DNA of 64,000 bases, from positions 62,001 to 126,000 of the forward strand of contig CAILNX010000037.1 in NCBI GenBank assembly GCA_903835685.1, given 5' to 3'. The stretch's first letter is position 1. Each line of letters begins with the position of its first letter. Below are positions 20,615-46,958 of this stretch, piece by piece. The notes under the pieces are model-generated. The model had not been told where the DNA came from. It saw only the letters and a list, made by a program, of their open reading frames with translations, and ran no database searches. Both the position numbers and the translations under genes were made by a program. Source of the DNA: an uncultured delta proteobacterium (GTDB taxonomy: Bacteria; Desulfobacterota; Desulfovibrionia; Desulfovibrionales; Desulfovibrionaceae).

Positions 20615-20700
20615 GGCATTGCCTTCCTGGACCGAAATTGCTACCTGCCCGGCGGGGCAAGACTCATGTGAGCATAATGCCCGGCAAGGGGGATGGCAAG

Positions 20701-21666
20701 ATGGACGTACGCTGGGCGCTTGAACAGATTCTGGACGGGCGCGAACTCACCGGGGACGAGGCCCGGCCGCTTCTGGACTGGCCCCTGGACCGCATCGCGG
20801 AGCTGGCCCGGGCCGCGCTGGTTCTCAAGGAGCGCCGTTTTCCCGGCCGGGTCCAGTTCTGCGCCATCGTCAACGCCAAGAGCGGAACCTGTTCCGAGGA
20901 CTGCGCCTTTTGCGCCCAGTCCGCTCATTACCAAACCAACAGCCCGGAATATCCCTTGCTGGACGAGGAGCGGGTCCTGGACGCGGCCCTGCGCATGAAG
21001 CGGGCCGGGGCGCGGCGCTTCTCCATTGTCACCAGCGGCAAGGGCCTGGGGGCCGAGGACCTGAGCCGGGTGGCCCATATGGTCAAGGCCATCCGGGACC
21101 TGGACCTCATTCCCGACGCCTCCCTGGGCGTCCTGGACCTGGACCAGCTCATCGCCCTGCGCCAGGCGGGCCTGGCCGGGTACCACCACAATCTGGAGAC
21201 GGCCCGGTCCTTTTTTCTCCAGGTATGCACCACCCATGATTACGAGGAGGACGTGGCCGTGGTCCAGGCCGCGCGCGAGGCCGGGCTGTACGTCTGCTCC
21301 GGGGGCATTTTCGGGCTGGGGGAGAGCTGGGAGCAGCGCCTGGAACTGGCCCTGACCCTGCGGAGCTTAAGCGTGGACTCCGTGCCCATCAATTTCCTGG
21401 CGCCCATCCCGGGCACGCCCTGCGCCGACCGGCCGCCTTTGAGTCCCGAGGAGGCCCTGAAGATCGTGGCCCTGTACCGCTTCATCCTCCCCCGGGCGCA
21501 CATCCGCATCTGTGGGGGCCGGGAACGGGTCTTCGGGCCGCGCAAGGCCGAACTCCTGGAGTCCGGGGCCAGCGGGATTATGGTCGGCGACTACCTGACC
21601 ACCAAGGGCTCCTCCCTGGAGTCCGATCAGGAGGACCTGCGGGTCCTGGGCCTGGCCCTGTCCTGA
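20701..21666 (+). CDS. bioB: biotin synthase
   Basis: A 321-residue radical SAM enzyme that inserts sulfur into dethiobiotin. The cluster motif CSEDCAFC places the [4Fe-4S] cysteines at about 64, 68 and 71. Typical BioB blocks follow (RFSIVTSGKGLG, YHHNLETARSFF, CSGGIFGLGESWEQR, INFLAPIPGTP, RICGGRERVFGPRKAELLESGA). Start ATG 20701 is set by an AAGGGGGA block at 20686-20693. An in-frame ATG at 20677 is possible and would add eight residues. The usual second-cluster Cys/Arg ligands are in place as far as can be read. No other bio gene is adjacent. Confidence 0.97.
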   Translation: MDVRWALEQILDGRELTGDEARPLLDWPLDRIAELARAALVLKERRFPGRVQFCAIVNAKSGTCSEDCAFCAQSAHYQTNSPEYPLLDEERVLDAALRMKRAGARRFSIVTSGKGLGAEDLSRVAHMVKAIRDLDLIPDASLGVLDLDQLIALRQAGLAGYHHNLETARSFFLQVCTTHDYEEDVAVVQAAREAGLYVCSGGIFGLGESWEQRLELALTLRSLSVDSVPINFLAPIPGTPCADRPPLSPEEALKIVALYRFILPRAHIRICGGRERVFGPRKAELLESGASGIMVGDYLTTKGSSLESDQEDLRVLGLALS

Positions 21667-21682
21667 ACAACCCTGAGCCCTT

Positions 21683-21744
21683 GTGCAACCCCGGCCGAGC
21701 GAACGTGCAAAGACCTGCGCGTATTGTGTGCAACTTGCTGCACA
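21683..21744 (+). promoter_or_regulatory. phased GTGCAA half-sites and dyad upstream of the sigma-54 promoter
   Basis: GTGCAA occurs at 21683, 21705 and 21728, spaced 22 and 23 bases (about two helical turns). The last copy is part of an inverted repeat TGTGCA-6-TGCACA at 21727-21744. The cluster ends about 50 bases before the sigma-54 promoter, a normal place for enhancer sites of an NtrC-type activator. This is my pattern reading; no known operator is claimed. Confidence 0.55.
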
Positions 21745-21794
21745 TGCGGCGGTCGTTTGAAGTGTATCTCACTGATTATATTTAATGTTTGTGT

Positions 21795-21810
21795 TGGCAC
21801 GGCCATTGCT
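21795..21810 (+). promoter_or_regulatory. sigma-54 promoter of the ZraP-like gene
   Basis: TGGCAC-5-TTGCT matches the -24/-12 consensus exactly, with GG at 21796-21797 and GC at 21808-21809. Transcription should start near 21821, about 46 bases before the ATG at 21867. Sigma-54 promoters need an activator ATPase, which is consistent with the upstream repeats at 21683-21744. Confidence 0.85.
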
Positions 21811-21866
21811 AATCTTTGGGGCAATGGCGCATTCGCCTCACCCAAAATTTTTTTCAAGGAGTACTT

Positions 21867-22493
21867 ATGAGCGGTTTGATTCAGAAAAGCGTCCCGGCCC
21901 TGGCCCTGATTCTGGCTTTGAGTGGTGCGGCTTATGCCGCCGATGCCCCGGCCAAGGCCGACGCCCCGGCGGCCATGGCCCCCATGGCCGGACAGGGCAT
22001 GATGATGGGGCACATGCAGGGGCTGACTCCTGAGAAACAGGAATTGGCCAAGACCATCATGCAGGAGCACAAGGAAAAGGTCTTCCCCCTGCGCCAGGAA
22101 CTTTACGCCGACAACGCCGAGCTTGAGGCCCTGCTGTCCAAGGGCGACGCCGACCCGGCCAAGGTCAAGGCCGTGAATGACAAGATCGCCGGGGCCAACG
22201 CCAAGATCGCCGAAGAGTACGCCGCGTTCCGCCAGCGTTTGTTCAAGGAAGTCGGCCTGCGCCAGGCTCCTCATGGCATGGGCATGATGGGCGGCGGCAT
22301 GATGGGCGAGGGCGGCTGCCCCATGATGCAGAACATGATGGGCGGCAAGGGCATGGGCGGCAAGGGCGGCATGGGCATGATGGGTGGCATGGGCGGCATG
22401 GGCGGAATGGACATGTCCGGTCAGGCCAAGACCCCGGCCAAGGGCGCCAAGCCGGCCAAGATGGCCAAGATGCCGGGCATGGACAACCAGTAA
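21867..22493 (+). CDS. ZraP/Spy-like periplasmic metal- or stress-responsive protein
   Basis: A 208-residue secreted protein. A signal peptide (LIQKSVPALALILALSGAAY-A) is followed by a short Ala/Pro/Met stretch and an alpha-helical core (LTPEKQELAKTIMQEHKEKV, then FPLRQELYADNAELEALLSK) of the Spy/CpxP/ZraP LTxxQ type. A C-terminal Met/Gly-rich tail is built of GMGGM-like repeats with one Cys. Such tails can bind Cu or Zn. ZraP-type proteins chaperone and buffer zinc in the periplasm and, in enterobacteria, are made from a sigma-54 promoter under ZraR; the promoter here matches that pattern. The start ATG 21867 has AAGGAG five bases upstream. An upstream in-frame start at 21816 would place 17 unlike residues before the signal peptide and precede the predicted transcript start. 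Confidence 0.85.
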   Translation: MSGLIQKSVPALALILALSGAAYAADAPAKADAPAAMAPMAGQGMMMGHMQGLTPEKQELAKTIMQEHKEKVFPLRQELYADNAELEALLSKGDADPAKVKAVNDKIAGANAKIAEEYAAFRQRLFKEVGLRQAPHGMGMMGGGMMGEGGCPMMQNMMGGKGMGGKGGMGMMGGMGGMGGMDMSGQAKTPAKGAKPAKMAKMPGMDNQ

Positions 22494-22520
22494 TCCCCGG
22501 ATTTTTTCACGCCGAGAACA

Positions 22521-22555
22521 GGCGGGAAAGGCTGAACGGCCTTTCCCGCCTTTTT
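22521..22555 (+). terminator. rho-independent terminator of the ZraP-like gene
   Basis: Perfect 12-bp arms (GGCGGGAAAGGC at 22521-22532 and its complement at 22539-22550) with a 6-base loop are followed directly by TTTTT. It lies 28 bases after the stop codon. Confidence 0.93.
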
Positions 22556-22747
22556 CGTTTCCAAGGATTCTGAAAAGAATGGCATGGAGGAAAAAGGCTG
22601 AGAGGAAGGAGGAGGGAGAATTGTTTGCGGATCGAATGCGGTGGTTACGGCTCGGTGTTGTTTCTCGTTTCAGATGAAACGCCGATCTCGTTTATTTAAT
22701 TATTCTTTTTTGTTCTTTTTCTTGTCTGGTTCTATCGTGTCAACTCG
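22556..22747. other. AT-rich intergenic stretch without a supported gene
   Basis: The left part is purine-rich (about 22570-22622) and the right part is a T-rich tract (about 22688-22735). A 32-codon frame from ATG 22579 exists but lacks a convincing ribosome-binding site and follows a terminator. I see no tRNA or clear promoter here. It separates the ZraP-like gene from the leftward MauE gene that ends at 22748. Confidence 0.5.
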
Positions 22748-24777: not shown

Positions 24778-24874
24778 GCCGATGTCCGGGGGGGCCGACC
24801 CTGATCCGGCCTGGCCGGACGTATTCCCGCAGTCCCGAAACTCGGCTGCAAGTCCGAAAGAGGCAGAACCAGGC

Positions 24875-27604
24875 ATGGACAGGCGATTTGGGCCCAAGGC
24901 CACGGTTCTCGGCATCCTGATCCTGGTTATTTTCTGCCTTTCGTCCGGTGCGGCCCGGGCCGAAGACACGTCCCGGCCCGATCCCGGGGCGTCCCACATC
25001 CTGATCCTGCACTCCTATCATCAGGGGTTCACCTGGACCGACAGCATCAATGCCGGGATGCGCGCGGTGTTGGCCCGTGAGTTTCCGGACAGCCACATCT
25101 CCCTGGAGTACCTGGACACCAAGCGCCATCCGTCCCAGGAATCCTTTCCGGTCCTGCGGGAGCTTTTCGCCCGCAAATACGTTCACTTCCAACCCTCGGT
25201 CATCCTGTGCTCGGACGACGACGCCCTGGACTTCCTGCTGGCCTACGGAGACCGGCTTTTCCCCGGGGTCCCGGCGGTCTTTTGCGGGGTGAACAACTAC
25301 CAGGACTCCCGGCTGGCCGGGCACACGAACATCACCGGGGTGGCCGAGGACTTCGATCTGAAAGCCACCCTGGAAACCGCCCTGACCCTTCAACCGGCCG
25401 TTCGGCGGGTGGTGGTGCTCACGGATCAGACCACCTCGGGGATAGAGAATCTGGCTCGGTTCCATGCTGTCCGTCCCTTTTTTGCCGGTAGGGCGGAGTT
25501 CGTGGAACTCTCCAATGTGTCTGAAGAAGAACTGCGCACGGCGCTGTTACAGCAGCCCAGTGATAGCCTTATTCTGTTCCTCTCCTATTTCCGGGATCGC
25601 AAGGGCAAGGCCTTGGGCACGGATCGGGTTTTCTCCATCATTTCCGAAAGCGGAGACCTGCCCACCTATTCGTGCTGGGATTTCCTCCTGGGCCGGGGCC
25701 TGGTGGGCGGGAAAATGGTCAGCGGCCGCCAGCAGGGCGAAACCGCCGCTGTCCTGGCCGCGCGCATCCTGCACCACGAGCGGCCCGAGGACATCCCTGT
25801 GGTGCGGGACGCTCCCGGCGAGTTCATGTTCGACAGCAGGCAGCTCCAGCGCCTGGGCCTGGCCGAGTCCCTGCTGCCCGCGGGCAGCCGCCTGGTCAAC
25901 CTGCCCGACTCCTTTACCGAACGACACAAGTCCAACATCCGTTGGGCTCTGCTGGTCATCGCCCTGCTCCTGGCCGTGGTTGTGGCCCTGGTGGTCAATA
26001 TTGTCAGGCGACGGGCAGCGGAACGGGCGCTCAAGGCCGGGCAGGAGCATTTCCGCACCCTGGTCGATTTCACCTCGGACATGGAGTATTGGATCGCGCC
26101 GGATCGCAGCCTGGTGTACGTTTCTCCTTCGGCCGTGCGCATCACCGGCTACACCACCGAGGAATTCAGTTGCAACCCGAATCTGCTGGAGGCCATCGTC
26201 CATCCGGACGACCGCGTGGCCTACCAGGCGCATATCGTGGAGGAGTTCCAGGACACCGAGGCCGGGGTCTTGGACTACCGGATTGTGACCCGAGGGGGAG
26301 GCGTGCGCTGGATCGGCCATCTGTGCCGTCCCGTGGAGGACGCCGAGGGCAAATTCCTGGGTCGGCGGTGCAGCAACCGGGACATCACCGAGCAGAAGAA
26401 GATGGAGGCCGAGCTGCGGGTGGCCAAGGAGGAGGCCGAGGCCGCCACCCGCTCCAAAAGCGAATTTCTGGCCAACATGAGCCACGAAATCCGCACCCCG
26501 ATCACCGGCATCAACGGGCTCACGGACCTGGCCCTGACCTGGGACTTGAGCTCTGAGCGCAAGCACTACCTGGGCATGATCAAGGAATCGACCCAGTCCC
26601 TTCTGGCCATCATCAACGACATCCTGGACCTGTCCAAGGTGGAGGCCGGGAAACTGGAGATCTGCCCGGTGGATTTCGAGCTGGAACGGGAACTCTTGCA
26701 GCTTTCCTCGGCCTTTGCGGTCCAGGGCGGGGTGCGCGGGCTGGAGTTCCGGCTGGACTTAGACCCCCTGGCCCCCAGATTCCTGCACGGGGACATGGAT
26801 CATCTGCGCCAGGTGCTGGTGAACCTCCTGGGCAATGCGCTGAAATTCACGGACCAGGGCGGCATCACCCTGCGGGTGGAGCAGGTCTGGCGCAAGGGGG
26901 ATATGGCCCGGCTGCGCTTCAGCGTGGCGGACACCGGCATCGGCATTCCCAGGGAGAAGCAGGGCACGGTGTTTGAGAAGTTCCGCCAGGCCGACAGCTC
27001 CTTTTCCAAGCGGATCAAGGGCACGGGCCTGGGCCTGGCCATCTGCAAGGAACTGGTGGCCCTTCTGGGCGGAACCATCGCCCTGCGCAGCACCCCGGGA
27101 TTCGGGAGCGTGTTCAGCTTCGAGTTGGAGTTCGCGGTCCCGCCCACCTGTTCGGGCGATCTGGCCGAACCCGCGCCCGCGCCCGAGTCCCTGCCCCGGC
27201 AGCGCATTCTCCTGGCCGAGGACAACGAGGTGAACCAGACCTTTTTGCAGCTTTTTCTGGAGGACGCGGGCCACGAGGTGGTCATCGCCTCCAACGGAAT
27301 CCAGGCCCTGGAGTTTCTCAATCAGCAGCCCTTTGACCTGGTGCTCATGGACGTGCAGATGCCGGAGATGGACGGGGTGGAGGCCACCCGGCGCATCCGG
27401 GCCGATCATTCCGGCCGTTTCGATCCCCGCATCCCCATCGTGGCGCTCACGGCCTACAGCATGAAGGGGGACATGGAGCGCTTCCTGTCCGTGGGCATGG
27501 ACGCCTATGTGTCCAAGCCCGTGGACATGGAGGAGCTGTTCCAGGTCTTAAGCGTGCTGGTGGGGAGGCAGGAACGTCCTCCCGAGGGCGGGGTCTGTTC
27601 GTAG
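24875..27604 (+). CDS. hybrid sensor histidine kinase with periplasmic ABC-type substrate-binding domain
   Basis: A 909-residue membrane sensor. An uncleaved or cleaved signal segment (about 8-28) precedes a periplasmic binding-protein-like domain at about 35-345 (ILILHSYHQGFTWTD opens it, as in the ABC_sub_bind/type 1 periplasmic fold used in such kinases). A membrane helix at about 357-378 follows, then PAS at about 391-505, HisKA with phosphoacceptor His at about 537 (ANMSHEIRTPITG), HATPase_c (NLLGNALKFTDQG, DTGIGIP, GTGLGLAICKELV), and a receiver domain with Asp at about 826 (LMDVQMPEMDG). It senses an unknown small ligand and phosphorylates itself then its own receiver. ATG 24875 has AAGAGG about 11 bases upstream. 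Its partner regulator is not adjacent. Confidence 0.93.
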   Translation: MDRRFGPKATVLGILILVIFCLSSGAARAEDTSRPDPGASHILILHSYHQGFTWTDSINAGMRAVLAREFPDSHISLEYLDTKRHPSQESFPVLRELFARKYVHFQPSVILCSDDDALDFLLAYGDRLFPGVPAVFCGVNNYQDSRLAGHTNITGVAEDFDLKATLETALTLQPAVRRVVVLTDQTTSGIENLARFHAVRPFFAGRAEFVELSNVSEEELRTALLQQPSDSLILFLSYFRDRKGKALGTDRVFSIISESGDLPTYSCWDFLLGRGLVGGKMVSGRQQGETAAVLAARILHHERPEDIPVVRDAPGEFMFDSRQLQRLGLAESLLPAGSRLVNLPDSFTERHKSNIRWALLVIALLLAVVVALVVNIVRRRAAERALKAGQEHFRTLVDFTSDMEYWIAPDRSLVYVSPSAVRITGYTTEEFSCNPNLLEAIVHPDDRVAYQAHIVEEFQDTEAGVLDYRIVTRGGGVRWIGHLCRPVEDAEGKFLGRRCSNRDITEQKKMEAELRVAKEEAEAATRSKSEFLANMSHEIRTPITGINGLTDLALTWDLSSERKHYLGMIKESTQSLLAIINDILDLSKVEAGKLEICPVDFELERELLQLSSAFAVQGGVRGLEFRLDLDPLAPRFLHGDMDHLRQVLVNLLGNALKFTDQGGITLRVEQVWRKGDMARLRFSVADTGIGIPREKQGTVFEKFRQADSSFSKRIKGTGLGLAICKELVALLGGTIALRSTPGFGSVFSFELEFAVPPTCSGDLAEPAPAPESLPRQRILLAEDNEVNQTFLQLFLEDAGHEVVIASNGIQALEFLNQQPFDLVLMDVQMPEMDGVEATRRIRADHSGRFDPRIPIVALTAYSMKGDMERFLSVGMDAYVSKPVDMEELFQVLSVLVGRQERPPEGGVCS

Positions 27605-43775: not shown

Positions 43776-43869
43776 TGGCGGAAGCGTATAGGGGTCGAAC
43801 CTACCGACGACCTCTCGACCGTCCACCGGATTTGAAGTCCGGGCGCCACACCGGTGACGATACGCTTCC
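43776..43869 (-). tRNA. selC: tRNA-Sec (anticodon TCA)
   Basis: The minus strand reads GGAAGCGT at its 5' end and ACGCTTCC at the 3' end (8-bp acceptor stem), a D arm, the anticodon loop around ACTTCAAATC giving anticodon TCA, a long variable arm, the T arm with GGTTCGACCCC, discriminator G and an encoded CCA. The 94-base length, the 8-bp acceptor and the extended variable arm are those of selenocysteine tRNA. It reads UGA at SECIS-marked sites. A -35/-10 pair lies just upstream on the same strand. Confidence 0.96.
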
Positions 43870-46106: not shown

Positions 46107-46958
46107 ATGACGGGCGGGACGGTATGGAATGTCGGGGGGGGCCGGGTCCTTGGCCCCTCGCCTTTTTTCATCGCCGGGATCGTGAACGTCACCCCGGACT
46201 CGTTCTATGACGGCGGGCGGCACGCCAGCCCCGAGCAGGCCGTTCAGCACGGCCTCAAGCTGGCCCGGGAAGGCGCGGACATCCTGGACGTGGGCGGGGA
46301 GAGCACCCGGCCCTTTGCCCCGGAAGTGAGCGTGGACGAGGAACTGGCCCGGGTGATTCCGGTGATTCGGAGCCTGGCTCAGGAGCTTGGCCCTGACGGC
46401 CCGGTCCTTTCGGTGGACACCTCCAAGGCCCCGGTGGCCCGGGCCGCGCTCGAAGCCGGGGCGCTCATGGTCAACGACGTCTCGGCCTGTTGCTTCGATC
46501 CCGGCCTGGCGGAAGTCCTGGCCGAACACCAGCCCGGGTACGTGCTCATGCACAGCCAGGGGCGGCCCGGAGACATGCAGAAGGACCCCTGCTACCAGGA
46601 CGTGGTGGCCGAGATTCTGGCTTTTTTCGAGGAGCGCCTGGAATTTCTGGCCCGGGCTGGACTGCTGCGGTCCCGGGTGGTTCTGGACCCGGGCATCGGG
46701 TTCGGCAAGACGCTTGAGCACAACCTGGCCATCCTGGCCGGGATCGAGAAATTTCTGGTCCTGGGGCGGCCCCTGTATCTGGGCCTGTCCAACAAATCCC
46801 TGTGGGGAAAGCTCCTGGACCTGCCCCCGGACGGGCGTCAGACCGCCACCCAGGTGGCCACGGCGCTCATGGCCGCCCGGGGCGTGGCCGTGCACCGGGT
46901 GCACGAGGTGGAATTGACCCGGCAGACCCTGGCTCTCGTCAGGGCCGTCGCCGGGTGA
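46107..46958 (+). CDS. folP: dihydropteroate synthase
   Basis: A 283-residue enzyme of folate synthesis that joins p-aminobenzoate to the pterin. Family blocks are present: IAGIVNVTPDSFYDGGR, ADILDVGGESTRPFA, VLSVDTSKAPVARAALEAGA, MVNDVSA and VVLDPGIGFGKTLEHNL with a GLSNKSLWG segment. All catalytic loops appear intact. It starts 15 bases after ftsH and precedes cdaA by 15 bases, the usual ftsH-folP-cdaA order of this lineage. Confidence 0.96.
   Translation: MTGGTVWNVGGGRVLGPSPFFIAGIVNVTPDSFYDGGRHASPEQAVQHGLKLAREGADILDVGGESTRPFAPEVSVDEELARVIPVIRSLAQELGPDGPVLSVDTSKAPVARAALEAGALMVNDVSACCFDPGLAEVLAEHQPGYVLMHSQGRPGDMQKDPCYQDVVAEILAFFEERLEFLARAGLLRSRVVLDPGIGFGKTLEHNLAILAGIEKFLVLGRPLYLGLSNKSLWGKLLDLPPDGRQTATQVATALMAARGVAVHRVHEVELTRQTLALVRAVAG

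Follow-up and report, generated by a model that had tools for sequence, protein, structure and literature searches.

A predicted sigma-54 promoter with a phased GTGCA array upstream of a zraP-like gene in a sulfate-reducer-type genome, and its likely ZraR-type activator

The closest described systems come from Escherichia coli and from Desulfovibrio. For E. coli ZraR, which has been tied to zinc, ethanol or envelope stress, the available portion of a ChIP-exo study gives zraP, zraSR and mgtA as targets and holds 12 further peaks to be spurious (PMC7657598). For Desulfovibrio vulgaris Hildenborough, the available regulon entries assign two regulators to envelope stress, namely, DVU3381, which acts on DVU3382-DVU3381 and DVU3384, and DVU1419, which acts on DVU0036, DVU1418-DVU1419 and an ncRNA upstream of DVU3282 (Kazakov 2015, PMC4641369). 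A second study tested the binding of DVU3381 by EMSA and notes that close relatives have kept its sites (Rajeev 2011, PMC3333781).

The window, that is, the whole 64-kb stretch of DNA analysed here, lies on contig C37 of a 3.94-Mb genome in 65 contigs; dsrA was found in this genome, in agreement with its preliminary description as a sulfate-reducer type. Sigma-54 promoters carry −24 GG and −12 GC elements at a fixed spacing within a flanking consensus. The 200-base intergenic region between bioB and zraP1 contains both such elements and, upstream of them, a phased array of putative activator sites. The features, in window positions, are as follows.

20692-21666, plus strand: bioB (biotin synthase), the upstream neighbour (TIGR00433, 368.9 bits against a cut-off of 225), with its stop codon at 21664-21666
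21683-21688, plus strand: GTGCAA half-site 1, at −112 from TGGCAC and on the family-wide half-site grid
21705-21710, plus strand: GTGCAA half-site 2, at −90 from TGGCAC
21727-21744, no strand assigned: dyad TGTGCA-N6-TGCACA, holding half-site 3 (GTGCAA, 21728, −67) and half-site 4 (TGCAC, 21739, −56); proposed main ZraR-type binding site
21795-21810, plus strand: sigma-54 −24/−12 element TGGCAC-GGCCA-TTGCT, an exact match to the consensus
21821, plus strand: predicted transcription start, placed from the −12 GC at 21808-21809
21856-21861, plus strand: ribosome-binding-site-like AAGGAG, from the sequence
21867-22493, plus strand: zraP1, encoding a 208-aa Metal_resist/ZraP-like protein (PF13801, 50.9 bits; PDB 3lay)
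22520-22551, plus strand: intrinsic-terminator-like hairpin with a T run (14 pairs, 9 of them GC)

The exact −24/−12 match, the three GTGCAA half-sites starting at 21683, 21705 and 21728 (spacing 22 and 23 bases), the dyad and the downstream ZraP-like gene had all been proposed in the preliminary description, and all were confirmed; the fourth half-site is the reversed TGCAC that closes the dyad.

The zraP1 product scored 50.9 bits with PF13801, above the gathering cut-off of 29.2, and the ZraP structure PDB 3lay (E 6.2e-6) was its sole solved relative at E 0.1. Its N terminus resembles a signal peptide by eye, and its C-terminal part is Met-rich. With the NCBIfam ZraP equivalog NF008584 the product reached 34.8 bits, far below the cut-off of 200, and it is therefore named ZraP-like and not ZraP. 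Compared with the Spy/CpxP/ZraP (Metal_resist, PF13801) envelope proteins, it is alike in its Pfam score over the cut-off and its Met-rich tail, but unlike in falling so far under the NCBIfam ZraP cut-off. The gene looks monocistronic. Shuffled sequence gives 1.4 terminator-like hairpins on average, compared with the single one seen here, so that the terminator call rests on position and stem length. Elsewhere in the window, a selenocysteine tRNA was detected at 43780-43869 on the minus strand (RF01852, 82.7 bits), so that some TGA codons of this genome are probably read as selenocysteine.

Within the 64-kb window, TGGCACNNNNNTTGCW has a single exact match, at 21795-21810. When one mismatch was allowed, three matches were found against 2.19 expected from shuffling; the hexamer pair alone is unremarkable, with one-mismatch forms at chance level, and the exact match was consequently treated as weaker evidence and not counted by itself. 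The dyad TGTGCA-N6-TGCACA is expected 0.01 times per shuffled window, and among 101 distinct TGCA cores in the 64 kb, the zraP1 promoter is the only place with four cores within 120 bases, and also the only place with three within 60 bases. Cores were counted as distinct TGCA because a raw half-site count doubles GTGCAC; such a raw count gave a second place near 46890, which consists of two cores each counted twice. The hexamer GTGCAA is rarer in the window (12 copies) than in shuffled sequence (27.2), and three of the 12 lie in the zraP1 array. A start near 21821, as predicted, would be consistent with the position of the element. As one part of the joint reading to which a probability is attached below, the bioB–zraP1 gap very probably holds everything that a sigma-54 promoter needs, enhancer included.

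The preliminary description placed the activator gene away from zraP1, and no Sigma54_activat match was present on contig C37, so that an activator inside the window was rejected. A hybrid kinase at 24869-27601 was also considered as the activator; at E 0.001, Pfam assigned it neither an AAA+ nor an HTH family. In the whole genome, rpoN gave a single match (Sigma54_DBD, 197 bits) and Sigma54_activat gave 32 matches, 29 of them above 170 bits. The genome-wide search for the exact dyad, TGTGCA-N6-TGCACA, returned three copies, in the window, at C43:60958 and at C19:42899, and every copy precedes a sigma-54-like element. The C43:60958 dyad, on the minus strand, precedes TGGCACGCATGCTGCT and then an operon of zraP2 (178 aa; PF13801, 54.4 bits), a sensor kinase (586 aa) and a regulator (464 aa; G000:C43:56885-58276, minus strand) with receiver, AAA+ and Fis-type HTH domains. 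The regulator is thus encoded together with a kinase and linked to a zraP-type gene behind a sigma-54-like element, as in a ZraSR-type system. The operator of this operon (L050:5459-5520) starts 8 bases past the stop codon of a dnaA gene (PF00308, 133.9 bits). The C19:42899 dyad precedes TGGCACAGGGGCTGCA, with a gap of 60 bases to the sigma-54-like element, and then a gene whose 546-aa product combines a cytochrome b domain with a His/Met-rich stretch.

When the pattern was loosened to TGCA 42-72 bases ahead of TGGCAY-N6-TGC, the genome gave 10 rows, corresponding to eight distinct places, against seven rows for the reversed pattern, indicating that the signal is carried by the arrays and not by the loose pattern. 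Four of the eight places have at least three half-sites each, and the remaining four have at most one. The array not yet described, at C43:302940, precedes a third zraP-like gene, zraP3, for a 141-aa protein with a Metal_resist score of 26.6 bits against the cut-off of 29.2. Accordingly, three of the four arrays stand before Metal_resist-type genes (one of them below the Pfam cut-off) and one before the cytochrome b gene; repeats scattered before unrelated genes, which the preliminary description had named as a sign against its reading, were not seen. Metal_resist gave six matches in the genome, of which two exceed the cut-off, and both of these have a dyad. Only one of the four arrays, that of the C43 operon, lies beside a gene for an NtrC-type regulator. 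Because the same array precedes its own operon, the ZraR-type regulator on C43 is most likely the missing activator of the window promoter. By sequence, E. coli ZraR matches a pair of regulators in this genome equally well (353 bits for L012, 352 bits for L014), and the name ZraR therefore rests on operon context and gene order.

The conservation of the arrangement was then read across the family. Of 149 family genomes, 33 carry the composite of dyad, gap and sigma-54 element, which makes 39 places against none for the reversed control, and in its strict form it occurs in 12 of the 44 genera searched. Thirty of the 39 places were read as loci, and in these the gap between dyad and element was 50-54 or 59-64 bases, two classes approximately one helical turn apart. 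The sequences behind the 30 composites were 20 ZraP-type genes (by tblastn), one cytochrome b gene, two genes for small exported-looking proteins and seven copies of a conserved, apparently noncoding stretch, all in one genus; in four of the 20 (L067, L070, L075 and L076) the ZraP-type gene came second, after a gene for a small exported-looking protein. Of the 149 genomes, 91 had a close relative of the C43 regulator, defined as a match of at least 490 bits and at least 60% identity by a line drawn after the scores had been seen. Below this line stood a match in G032, a 72%-complete genome, with 455 bits and 56% identity, which is possibly a true relative, followed by matches that scored no more than 453 bits, with identities of about 50% or lower. 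All 33 composite-bearing genomes were among the 91 with the regulator and none among the other 58 (Fisher 6e-9, a value that treats genomes as independent, which related genomes are not).

The strict composite was lacking in 58 of the 91 regulator-bearing genomes. Forty regulator loci were read, 38 from these 58 genomes and two from genomes with the composite elsewhere, and zraP was detectable beside the regulator in 25 of the 40. A sigma-54-like element and at least three half-sites lay upstream in 24 of these 25 zraP loci (in L197, one of the three is at −16); L205, with zraP present, had no half-site array. The other 15 loci, of which three are cut by contig ends, had neither zraP beside the regulator nor an array within the part that was scanned. 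Since 24 of 25 zraP loci carry arrays, the strict dyad is one form of a looser array.

The half-sites of this array follow a common grid. In 29 promoters, chosen for having at least three half-sites and not for the dyad, the 122 half-site cores were periodic at 11.25 bases with a vector strength of 0.475, whereas 2000 random placements, each taken at its best period, reached 0.30 at most; this statistic is descriptive, as related promoters are not independent. The window sites at −56, −67, −90 and −112 sit on the family grid, and 'phased enhancer-like repeats', the wording of the preliminary description, was therefore a fair one.

Taken together, the reading we prefer, with a probability of roughly 86%, is that the C43 ZraR-type regulator and RpoN drive zraP1 and three more promoters via the GTGCA array. 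The elements, the way they are shared and conserved, and the linkage within the operon were observed directly; to arrive at a mechanism, we infer regulator binding, phosphorylation, rpoN dependence and the stress signal from the general behaviour of NtrC-type activators. RpoN-RNA polymerase would occupy the element at 21795-21810, and the C43 kinase, encoded just before the regulator, would sense envelope or metal stress and phosphorylate the regulator. The phosphorylated regulator would then multimerise on the GTGCA array 56-112 bases upstream, open the sigma-54 promoter and turn zraP1 on. The same protein would activate its own operon, zraP2-kinase-regulator, as well as the zraP3 gene and the His/Met-rich cytochrome b gene, with zraP1 as an unlinked second target of the C43 system.

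That the promoter is sigma-54 dependent and yet served by another NtrC-type regulator, such as a paralogue whose DNA-binding domain is similar, or by a pair of regulators acting through the same sites, is in our judgement quite improbable. Many alternative regulators exist, given the 29 Sigma54_activat matches above 170 bits and the equal closeness of L012 and L014 to E. coli ZraR, and 17 of 33 regulator motifs of D. vulgaris fall into similarity groups in the available part of the regulon study (Kazakov 2015, PMC4641369). Nevertheless, the C43 regulator gene is the only one of the NtrC type beside any of the four arrays, the array in relatives precedes zraP-kinase-regulator operons with the same regulator, and none of the 58 genomes lacking a close relative of the C43 regulator yielded the composite.

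The dyad might alternatively be the operator of an unrelated repressor or of a CRP/FNR-like regulator, with the sigma-54-like element incidental. It is a good palindrome, and sigma-54-like sites with one mismatch readily arise by chance in the window, which lends this alternative some appeal; yet dyad and element are kept together at two spacings in the 30 loci, the 39 places in 33 genomes contrast with none in the reversed control, and a simple consensus scan of 21600-22700 detected no sigma-70-type promoter, so that we regard it as very improbable.

The contigs of a broader genome collection were also scanned with nearly the same pattern (gap of 42-70 bases), giving 57 stretches; many of these records belong to the same species as the family genomes, so that this count and that of the 39 places are interdependent. 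By title or gene match, 29 of the 57 were sorted as Desulfovibrio-type or deltaproteobacterial, and among these a ZraP-type match was present in 21, in many cases followed by kinase and regulator. Examples with both are L087, L092, L095, L097, L108, L112 and L125, in which the regulator is 63-68% identical. In L123 the site is at the end of the stretch, and in L084, where an unrelated-looking gene lies behind it, the site is probably due to chance. On L114, a 7.3-kb contig of Desulfovibrio sp. A2, composites at 563-649 and 2282-2368 each precede a gene for a small exported-looking protein. The other 28 stretches come from other groups, eight of them from Pseudomonas (L101, L118, L121, L126, L130, L132, L133 and L134). 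By eye, the first frame behind the composite is sigma-factor-like in seven of these eight records, and no frame was listed for L126. The Pseudomonas composites look like a separate sigma-54 regulon and not noise, and their enhancer-binding protein is probably another one that happens to use a similar site. A chance resemblance of no regulatory meaning, to which the shortness of the GTGCA half-sites and the 28 stretches outside Desulfovibrio-type records might point, is hardly credible against 0.01 dyads per window shuffle, the conservation and operon linkage, and a sigma-factor-like frame recurring in seven of eight Pseudomonas records.

In Nitratidesulfovibrio, approximately 650 conserved bases (L082:2105-2750) lie behind the same array and its sigma-54-like element. 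The same stretch was observed in L057, L058, L060-L064, L090 and L109 and, by similar frames, in L103 and L137. It has a noncoding appearance: of 53 indel runs relative to one reference, 37 have lengths that three does not divide, and seven of eight sequences have a terminator-like hairpin. Rfam returned nothing at the gathering score for L082, L064, L051 and L050. The stretch may be the ncRNA upstream of DVU3282 that appears in the available regulon entries (Kazakov 2015, PMC4641369).

In this regulon, only the cytochrome b target would come as a surprise to a specialist. At E 1e-30, the gene (L051:2031-3671) was found in two of the 149 family genomes, the host genome included. The copy in the relative, L159, has a sigma-54-like element and three half-sites upstream; since the start codon follows the element only after about 440 bases, the link between array and cytochrome gene is weaker there. 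Both genomes have a gene for a Met-rich small protein next to the cytochrome gene, divergent in the host and downstream in L159.

L051:1281-1691: host Met-rich small protein, 136 aa, with no Pfam match
L159, 1225 onward and 2678 onward: His/Met-rich cytochrome b and Met-rich small protein, respectively

It is conceivable, although we consider it unlikely, that the regulon, with its membrane cytochrome b and the His/Met-rich N-terminal region of that protein, links the capture of metal in the envelope by ZraP-like and Met-rich proteins with the passing of electrons to periplasmic metal, and that the 11-base grid is an extended cooperative enhancer for a ZraR filament or multimer rather than a site for a single dimer.

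Compared with the ZraPSR system of E. coli and Salmonella, the present system is alike in its ZraP-type protein, sensor kinase, NtrC-type regulator and sigma-54 dependence as predicted here, and the C43 regulator is 46% identical to E. coli ZraR over 444 aa. Two differences stand out. In E. coli, zraP and zraSR are divergently oriented, whereas here zraP2 heads the operon and zraP1 is unlinked; and the 237-base zraP-zraSR intergenic region of E. coli contains no GTGCA or TGCAC, which suggests a ZraSR-like working with another operator. Conserved ZraSR-like sigma-54 control through a different operator, as first put forward in the preliminary description, is thus supported. That description had missed the link of the activator to the paralogue zraP2, the family-wide grid of about 11 bases and the precedent in D. 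vulgaris. A gene that bears the name zraP in D. alaskensis G20, a possible counterpart of zraP1 or zraP2, showed the strongest down-regulation of all genes at 15 uM copper, and copper as an inducer is therefore unsupported in that organism (PMC8836040).

In D. vulgaris, the DVU3381 and DVU1419 regulons are alike in having an NtrC-type two-component system, sigma-54, and an own operon with distant small targets, within the same bacterial group (PMC4641369 and PMC3333781, as far as available). The likeness concerns regulon layout, and one of the two regulators may be the counterpart. Two Nitratidesulfovibrio-type regulator loci (L228 and L229) had no zraP and no array. The available entries for these two regulons give no second or third zraP-like gene and no cytochrome b target (PMC4641369). 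This type of regulon is already in print for D. vulgaris, and the present promoter is a well-conserved example of a known envelope-stress control. What is added here is the likely activator and its location, a regulon of four promoters, a conserved grid and the cytochrome b target. The reading of a single promoter is thereby extended to a defined regulon in sulfate reducers, with four promoters, one candidate regulator and one operator grammar, and to an example of a homologous stress circuit in which the wiring has been kept and the DNA code has changed.
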